Shown: positions 43,618-45,824 of the stretch, one piece after another
How the letters are laid out: every line of letters begins with the position of its first letter
Position numbering within the stretch: the first letter of the stretch is position 1
Source of the DNA: Variovorax sp. OAS795
GTDB taxonomy: Bacteria; Pseudomonadota; Gammaproteobacteria; Burkholderiales; Burkholderiaceae_C
DNA length: 64,000 nt
Assembly: GCF_040546685.1 (NCBI RefSeq)
Contig: NZ_JBEPOH010000001.1
Coordinates: 2,542,001-2,606,000, forward strand
Reading direction: 5' to 3'
Position numbers and translations under genes: made by a program
Notes under the pieces: generated by a model
What the model was told of the DNA's origin: nothing
What the model saw: only the letters and a program-made list of their open reading frames with translations
Database searches by the model: none

Positions 43618-43780
43618 GTGCTGCCTCCTGCGTGATGCCGGTTGATTCAGTTCTTCGTTACGCGCCACACGCTAGGCCTGGCGCTGAGGCGCGGCTGTAG
43701 GCCCGCTCCCCGAATTTCCGCAGGCTGGGCGCGAAAATCTTCGGCGCCGGCGCGGCGGGCTCTTGTACACTCCCACCTTC

Positions 43781-43918
43781 ATGCCGAGCCATCACTTCGT
43801 CCCCACCGCCGTCTGCGCAGCCTCCGTGGCGCGCATCGGGTCGCCTGCCTTTGCGCTGGCGAACGGGTCGCGGGTTGCTGCTCGAATGATTACCACCATT
43901 ACCACCGCGGCCCCCTGA
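43781..43918 (+). CDS. Leader peptide with Ile-Thr-Thr-Ile-Thr-Thr, hom attenuation
   Basis: A 45-codon frame ends with ATG ATT ACC ACC ATT ACC ACC GCG GCC CCC TGA, so the last ten codons read MITTITTAAP. Four Thr and two Ile codons stand consecutively about 60 bases before a terminator and about 110 bases before hom, just as in thr-type attenuation leaders. ATG 43781 (a TACACT -10-like box at 43766-43771 makes it nearly leaderless) or the internal ATG 43886 can start it. The Thr/Ile bias and the position before a threonine-pathway gene make chance unlikely. Confidence 0.75.
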   Translation: MPSHHFVPTAVCAASVARIGSPAFALANGSRVAARMITTITTAAP

Positions 43919-43925
43919 GCACGCG

Positions 43926-44011
43926 CAGGTGGCCGTTTCGGCAGCCACCTGGTGTATCGCTCTTCTCCGAATGAATGAACCCAGCCCTGGCAGCTGGGTT
44001 TCTTGTTTTTT
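43926..44011 (+). promoter_or_regulatory. Transcription attenuator before hom
   Basis: CAGGTGGC (43926-43933) pairs perfectly with GCCACCTG (43944-43951). Then AACCCAGC (43978-43985) pairs perfectly with GCTGGGTT (43993-44000), followed by TCTTGTTTTTT, an intrinsic terminator 16 bases before the hom start. The first strand can alternatively pair with the CGGCC at the leader stop. If ribosomes stall at the Thr/Ile codons when these amino acids are scarce, the upstream hairpins should rearrange and let transcription reach hom. The exact antiterminator pairing is not settled by eye. Confidence 0.75.
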
Positions 44012-44026
44012 CATCCGGAGATTTCC

Positions 44027-45388
<1,362 letters not shown>

Positions 45389-45488
45389 GACAGAATCAGG
45401 CACGGCGGGCCTGGCTGCCGCTGGAACGGGAGCGGCAATGGGTTTCGATGGGCACTGTGTACTTCAATGGGAACGGCAGGCGCCGCGC

Positions 45489-45824
45489 ATGAAGCGCGGA
45501 CTCCTCGCTGCTGCGCTGCTGGCGGTGGCCGCATCCGCCTTCGCGCAAGCCCCCTCGGCGGAGCCGCCGGGCGCCGCATCGTGCCAGGCGGAAGAAGCCG
45601 CGCTGGAGCGGGACATCGACCTTGCGCGCTCCCGGGGCCAGATGCTGCGCCGGCGGCAACTGGCCGAAAACCTCGCCGCGCTGCGCACGCGCTGCGAGGC
45701 ATCCGAGCCTTCCATGAACCGTGCCGCGCGCATCGGCAAGCTGGAGCACGACATCCAGCTGCTCAGGGCAGAACTCGAACACGCCGAGGAGCAATTGCGC
45801 GAGTTGAAGAACGAGCGGCCCTGA
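45489..45824 (+). CDS. DUF1090 family periplasmic protein
   Basis: A 111-residue protein with a signal peptide (about 1-19, ending AFA). The mature part is a charged helix-rich domain with C-x(n)-C spacing (ASCQAEEAALERDIDLARS, LRTRCEAS) typical of DUF1090 (YqjC-like), continuing as a coiled coil. The frame is open 51 bases upstream, but ATG 45489 gives the signal peptide. Function unknown. Confidence 0.7.
   Translation: MKRGLLAAALLAVAASAFAQAPSAEPPGAASCQAEEAALERDIDLARSRGQMLRRRQLAENLAALRTRCEASEPSMNRAARIGKLEHDIQLLRAELEHAEEQLRELKNERP

Follow-up and report, generated by a model that had tools for sequence, protein, structure and literature searches.

A probable threonine/isoleucine attenuator with a near-leaderless reading frame and a relay of exclusive RNA helices precedes a second homoserine dehydrogenase gene in Comamonadaceae

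A second copy of the homoserine dehydrogenase gene hom (hom2) in Variovorax sp. OAS795 is very probably controlled by a ribosome-mediated attenuator, in which translation of a near-leaderless reading frame would sense the supply of threonine (and isoleucine) and act on hom2 through mutually exclusive RNA helices. Judged by sequence comparison, this would be a Thr/Ile attenuator of a known kind with a new architecture. Comparative analyses support both the codon run and the exclusive helices, and from these we infer control of hom2 by tRNA charging, together with leaderless translation, sensing by the ribosome and the two outputs, termination and Shine-Dalgarno masking. The elements lie at the following positions of the window (the whole 64-kb stretch of DNA analysed):

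43766..43771, forward strand: -10-like box TACACT, with a predicted transcription start at or just before the leader ATG; present at 61/61 genus loci
43781..43918, forward strand: leader ORF, 45 amino acids plus stop, with a near-leaderless ATG; frame kept in 61/61 genus loci and 42/42 loci elsewhere
43886..43906, forward strand: regulatory codons Met-Ile-Thr-Thr-Ile-Thr-Thr
43908..43917, forward strand: segment A, overlapping the final codons and the stop; partner, B
43926..43935, forward strand: segment B; partner, A or C
43938..43952, forward strand: segment C; partner, B or the terminator arm-loop-arm (T)
43964..43975, forward strand: anti-Shine-Dalgarno strand, TCTCCG and then ATGAA
43978..43985, forward strand: T1, the terminator 5' arm
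43981-43997, forward strand: span of the C:T antiterminator on the terminator side
43993..44000, forward strand: T2, the terminator 3' arm
44001..44011, forward strand: T-rich tail of the terminator; at least 7 T in 10 bases in 54/58 aligned members
44010..44021, forward strand: strand pairing with the anti-Shine-Dalgarno strand, including the hom Shine-Dalgarno GGAGA at 44017-44021
44027..45388, forward strand: hom (second copy, hom2), 453 amino acids, without an ACT match

The leader frame, MPSHHFVPTAVCAASVARIGSPAFALANGSRVAARMITTITTAAP, runs from the ATG at 43781 to a TGA stop at 43916-43918, and a gap of 9 nt separates the TACACT box from the ATG. This frame, both hairpins, the T-tailed terminator and the spacing to hom had been proposed in the initial annotation and were borne out base by base: the arms of the 8-bp hairpin are 43926-43933 and 43944-43951, and the hom ATG at 44027 lies 16 nt past the T-rich tail and 26 nt past the terminator stem. 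The pattern of Ile-Thr-Thr-Ile-Thr-Thr codons, ATHACNACNATHACNAC, occurs once in the 64-kb window and in 0 of 100 shuffles. A terminator scan of 601 bases on both strands returned four sites against a shuffle mean of 0.5, three of the four being the hom leader stem, while the 250-nt leader folds with a z of -2.24, equally low in 2 of 200 shuffles. A strict sigma-70 promoter search at the leader found none, the conserved part being the -10-like box only. Rfam gave no match in the window at the gathering threshold; at E up to 10, region 43700-44060 gave four matches, the best of them a snoRNA (E 0.053) and none an attenuator leader. Immediately after hom2 and in the same orientation, 45438-45824 encodes a DUF1090-like protein.

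Orthologues of the window hom (at least 70% identity to it) numbered 61 in a sample of 100 genomes of the genus, and the leader, hairpins and terminator accompany all 61. Every upstream region reads TACACT, 8-12 nt and then a first ATG, in frame with ATGATTA.C and the stop. Between this ATG and the Thr run the spacing varies, with eight different lengths of 69 to 108 nt, each a multiple of three; when the upstream half was examined for a third-position excess as a sign of coding, the result was negative, with 3245/2668/2517 changes at positions 1/2/3. Comparison within the genus indicates that the upstream half keeps a reading frame with an unconstrained amino-acid sequence. Two genes of the other hom type (L063 and L064; 57% and 56% identity), fetched for comparison, are without the leader.

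Beyond the genus, a pattern search of 349 family genomes yielded the first carriers in other genera, and a covariance model run on 399 family genomes detected the leader in 46 genomes of 17 genera at E ≤2.3e-17. Strong members outside the own genus amount to 42 loci in 16 further genera; named carriers are Acidovorax benzenivorans, Acidovorax sp. Leaf78 and a Giesbergeria MAG. In 42/42 of these leaders the ATG is preceded, at 6-10 nt, by a TACACT, TATACT, TATGCT, TAAACT or TAGACT box, a count that is partly selected because, of the candidate boxes ahead of an in-frame ATG, the one with the best score was taken. Across all 103 leaders examined (61 in the genus and 42 elsewhere), the box stands 6-12 nt before the ATG, and the first ATG past it is in frame. 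The near-leaderless design suspected at the outset, and considered odd for an attenuator, is thus the predicted rule among these leaders. The initial annotation had also staked its reading on the codon run being conserved in relatives, and a Thr-rich run is present in 103/103 predicted leaders, each an ORF with a run of codons for pathway products. In the 42 leaders from other genera, threonine makes up 41% of the last ten residues versus 6% of the rest. The second Ile of the run is often Met in other genera, and Thr is therefore probably the main signal. In genus g125 (L122 and L127) the Thr run has no ATG close by, which leaves the leaderless ATG as the start that has to be used there; an internal start at 43886 as the sole start is ruled out, as g125 has no ATG at that place.

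Downstream of the 46 leader loci, a homoserine dehydrogenase was found in 43 (tblastn, at least 50% identity). Weak family matches numbered eight (E 8e-5 or worse): L140-L143, whose loci were read and rejected as hom leaders, and those of G249, G118, G243 and G149. Outside the family, the covariance model detected no hom leader in 300 order or 229 class genomes, searched with stricter large-set filters: of the five non-own order matches, three (L145, L147 and L148) precede thrS and two (L144 and L146) are put down to chance, and the three non-own class matches all look like chance. In a protein search of 250 family genomes, several hom genes at 56-62% identity were among the matches listed; five such homs without a model match, whose upstream regions were read, comprise three behind an aminotransferase-like gene and two with another leader. 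The homs of G298, G138 and G284 stand behind the same aminotransferase-like gene as hom1.

Related arrangements were seen at other loci. In genus g12 (G324 and G241; L263 and L264), hom follows a near-leaderless Thr/Ile leader with another set of hairpins; it also has a Shine-Dalgarno hairpin, which in L263 is perfect. At L145, L147 and L148 (the last two identical to L152 and L153), in two other Burkholderiales families, a near-leaderless Thr-rich leader precedes thrS; its A, B and C segments are similar and it is without a U-tract, and thrS is a second copy in G525 and G569. A third arrangement occurs at the thrS of the own genome (L149, G000:C1 about 2300562) and at L155, L169, L171 and L177, where a short ORF with Arg-Thr-Thr-type codons and a U-tailed hairpin lie upstream; this looks like a separate thrS attenuator.

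The comparative evidence supports a relay of exclusive helices in the predicted leader RNA, A:B, B:C, C:T and T1:T2. In an alignment of 58 distinct members, standard pairs fill 92.9% of cells in A:B, 95.9% in B:C, 92.9% in C:T and 96.3% in T1:T2, against at most 67% when a partner is slid by 1-3 columns. Column-wise compensatory pairs are few (2, 0, 2 and 3, respectively, with slid versions reaching 0-3), and B:C covariation shows no excess over shuffles, slide +3 scoring 0.122 versus 0.089 for the true register. Low variation is expected at these positions because the bases serve two helices. As a stronger test, segments were swapped between genera, using one sequence per genus from 17 genera and the mean of 60 draws. 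Native segments beat exchanged ones for A:B (z -2.9), B:C (-3.5), C:T (-4.15) and T1:T2 (-4.5), and the control pairings A:T (+0.7), B:T (+0.5) and A:C (+1.0) are unsupported in the same 17 genera. On all distinct segments, with kinship uncontrolled, 0 of 2000 permutations were as good for each of the four links. At the C:T mismatch position (C column 75, T column 143), the 58 members carry A/A in 32, G/C in 14, U/A in 8 and G/A in 4. The stems had been expected to covary if the initial reading was sound, and by re-pairing across 17 genera each link does so; an exclusive terminator and antiterminator with evolutionary support are present, with pairing kept and few compensatory columns.

A fifth helix, between the anti-Shine-Dalgarno strand and the Shine-Dalgarno strand, gave -14.6 kcal/mol in native pairs versus -11.4 in exchanged ones (z -4.9; 15 genera, in the 38/58 rows with an automatically found hom start). 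This helix is compatible with T1:T2 and, in a nested fold, incompatible with C:T. The 8-bp hairpin of the initial annotation is real and is one link of the relay; segment A, the C:T antiterminator and the Shine-Dalgarno helix had been missed. A simple two-hairpin model (43926-43951 plus the terminator) was rejected, as it offers no explanation for segment A, for C:T or for the conservation of the terminator loop.

The effect of ribosome position was calculated by masked folding, an equilibrium calculation in which RNA covered by the ribosome is removed, with the last covered base assumed at A-site +12, and the rest is folded. With half of T2 emerged, the mean probability of C:T over the 58 members is high while the A-site is on the first Ile codon (-27, 0.85) or on either of the Thr codons after it (-24, 0.86; -21, 0.83); it falls to 0.38 once the second Ile is reached (-18) and to 0.20 and 0.21 on the Thr codons beyond (-15/-12). 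With T2 complete, T1:T2 rises from 0.27-0.33 at early codons to 0.72-0.89 past the same boundary. These folding probabilities put the predicted switch point at the step from the second Thr codon to the second Ile, and on their basis early stalling would mean ON and further progress OFF; with the ribosome at the stop codon the outcome is intermediate. The sign is opposite to that of a classical trp parity, in which a stalled ribosome covers segment 1 and 2:3 is the antiterminator; that scheme was rejected, B:C also missing the terminator.

Forced-state energies with a complete terminator arm favour ON at early codons in 28-33 of 58 members (mean -0.5 to -1.3 kcal/mol); from codon -18 to codon -3 this number drops to 2-9. 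Ribosome position shifts the fold as expected in the mean of 58, and the window's own copy is marginal: at early codons OFF is favoured by 4.0-5.8 kcal/mol, the main weakness of the case there. We attribute this preference to a C-U mismatch at one of the ten pairs of its segment A with B, a mismatch common to several relatives. In the window copy the ON state would accordingly have to be kinetic.

We propose a transcription start that coincides with the leader ATG or lies no more than about 3 nt from it, which would make translation leaderless. A ribosome held at the first Ile, Thr and Thr codons would leave A exposed, A:B would form and C would be freed; C could then pair with the emerging terminator, so that transcription would continue and the ribosome site of hom would be more open (ON). 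A ribosome moving on would cover A, allowing B:C to pair and the terminator to form (OFF), and in any read-through messenger of the OFF state the Shine-Dalgarno would be hidden.

How this output is divided between termination and translation is the point at which another explanation fares best. Control could be mainly translational, the relay governing Shine-Dalgarno access only and the U-tract hairpin being a minor or constitutive terminator; we consider this unlikely, yet well within reach of the data. The covariation of the Shine-Dalgarno helix across 15 genera speaks for it, as does the persistence of the relay in 4 of 58 members, from three genera, in which a full U-tract is absent: L122, L127 (g125), L132 (g122) and L136 (g88), with 3, 1, 4 and 6 T, respectively, in the 10 bases after T2. 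The Shine-Dalgarno helix is seen in L122 and L136. L132, which alone represents g122 among the 38 rows of the Shine-Dalgarno tests, has its Shine-Dalgarno paired in the OFF fold; L127 is outside those rows. In these U-tract-poor members the output is, on sequence grounds, probably translational. Against a general translational role stand the T-rich tail retained in 54 of the 58 and the T1:T2 link, whose mean z is larger than that of any other link. Moreover, the Shine-Dalgarno opens only in part in the ON fold: it is unpaired at 0.29 with C:T forced versus 0.05 with T1:T2 forced (ON higher in 36 of 38), and a pseudoknot could keep it hidden in ON.

The signal itself might be the nascent peptide rather than tRNA charging, with the conserved ARMITT.T.AA. 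tail arresting the ribosome, with or without a small ligand. That the tail, including Ala-Arg-Met, is far better conserved in the genus than the remaining peptide fits such an arrest, which we nevertheless regard as improbable: the tail tolerates I to M, T to S, A, N or P, and loss of ARM in g125, and its DNA doubles as segment A. Still less probable is a reversed logic, with hom2 switched on once translation is complete because a ribosome at the stop codon would cover part of B and favour C:T. With the ribosome there, C:T does reach 0.81 at half T2 (mean of 58), but at complete T2 the OFF state is favoured (T1:T2 0.63, C:T 0.32), and an enzyme of the Thr pathway would rise when Thr is plentiful. 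Terminators between genes are common, yet chance or a plain intergenic terminator without a regulatory role is next to excluded by retention in 17 genera, five helices with re-pairing support and a codon run that no shuffle reproduced.

The gene controlled by the proposed Thr/Ile attenuator belongs to a distinct group. The own genome holds two hom matches, the leader-bearing hom2 and a copy at 55% identity. The suggestion that hom here is a second copy is confirmed. The other copy (L002) lies after a gene end that we take, without a search, for that of an aminotransferase. A tree was built from 28 leader-bearing and 48 hom1-type proteins, with 22 of 46 leader loci left out (wrong frame taken or short locus), and in it the leader-bearing proteins form one clade with support 0.999. 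The tree also rejects the idea that leader-bearing homs at 50-55% identity are hom1, identity alone being unable to separate the lower ones. An ACT match is absent from all 9 hom2 proteins searched (that of the window, L107, L117, L122 and L123 with an E limit of 1; L182-L185 with an E limit of 0.1) and present in 7 of 7 hom1-type proteins. Because hom2 retains its C-terminal region, it may still have a diverged ACT-like domain. The attenuator would offer a reason for having a second hom in which no ACT domain is recognisable: its synthesis may be controlled in place of enzyme feedback.

In three genomes of genus g73 (G474, G276 and G353; L124/L270, L125/L271 and L126/L272), the leader precedes an ORF of 114-119 amino acids that matches the C-terminal domain of hom2, the catalytic part being missing (blastp E 3e-18 to 1e-27 against L117; hhalign 98.5%). 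L117, from the same genus, is a full-length hom2. The orphan ORF of G276 is annotated as homoserine dehydrogenase in Oryzisolibacter propanilivorax, and a protein search with it returned no other stand-alone relative at E 0.001, a search of limited reach that missed the sister ORFs too. Its unexpected occurrence behind the leader suggests that the C-terminal domain alone may have a use. Tentatively, and with somewhat less than even confidence in the scheme as a whole, the leader may be an interchangeable control module: a terminator plus Shine-Dalgarno lock in most Comamonadaceae carriers, translation alone where the U-tract is lost or weakened in three genera, attached to the orphan hom2 C-terminal domain in three genomes of one genus, and with a similar leader on thrS in other Burkholderiales families.

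Several described systems share parts of this design. PMC3766115, which treats Rfam attenuators and gamma-proteobacteria, names a threonine attenuator motif in Rfam. In Sinorhizobium meliloti, the RNA of the rnTrpL/trpL attenuator begins at the ATG of the leader ORF (PMC7298713); an attenuator leader RNA starting at its ORF ATG would be common to both, the 5' end being stated there and predicted here, whereas the amino acid (Trp), the target trpE(G) and the bacterial class differ. Leaderless transcripts occur in Burkholderia (PMC4603805). The metXZ RNA element of beta-proteobacteria, with six conserved regions and a pseudoknot upstream of metX/metZ, shares the broad bacterial group, a neighbouring pathway and a predicted terminator-antiterminator switch; a leader peptide is not mentioned in section 10 of PMC4239095, and the present leader sits before hom2, not metX/metZ. 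Threonine and homoserine do not occur in the excerpt of PMC2965389. Among the open-access titles and abstracts listed, none described the hom2 leader.

The hom2 leader adds a well-supported attenuator in another bacterial group, with 103 near-leaderless leaders and a relay whose every link is open to compensatory mutation. Its natural variants appear to have changed the output from termination to translation.

His-type multi-hairpin attenuators likewise use a chain of alternating helices to relay ribosome position to a terminator; their codons and parity differ, and they are not known to have a Shine-Dalgarno lock. A close counterpart is the thrL attenuator of the Escherichia coli thr operon, which shares a Thr/Ile-rich leader peptide, the choice between terminator and antiterminator, and Thr codons immediately preceding the RNA segment on whose availability the ON state depends. 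The initial annotation likened the codon bias of the leader to that of enterobacterial thr operons; the likeness holds for the codon logic and fails for the RNA architecture. Unlike thrL, which controls thrABC, the hom2 leader has no Rfam match and would control a single hom through a four-link relay instead of one antiterminator, from a near-leaderless start and with an extra Shine-Dalgarno lock.
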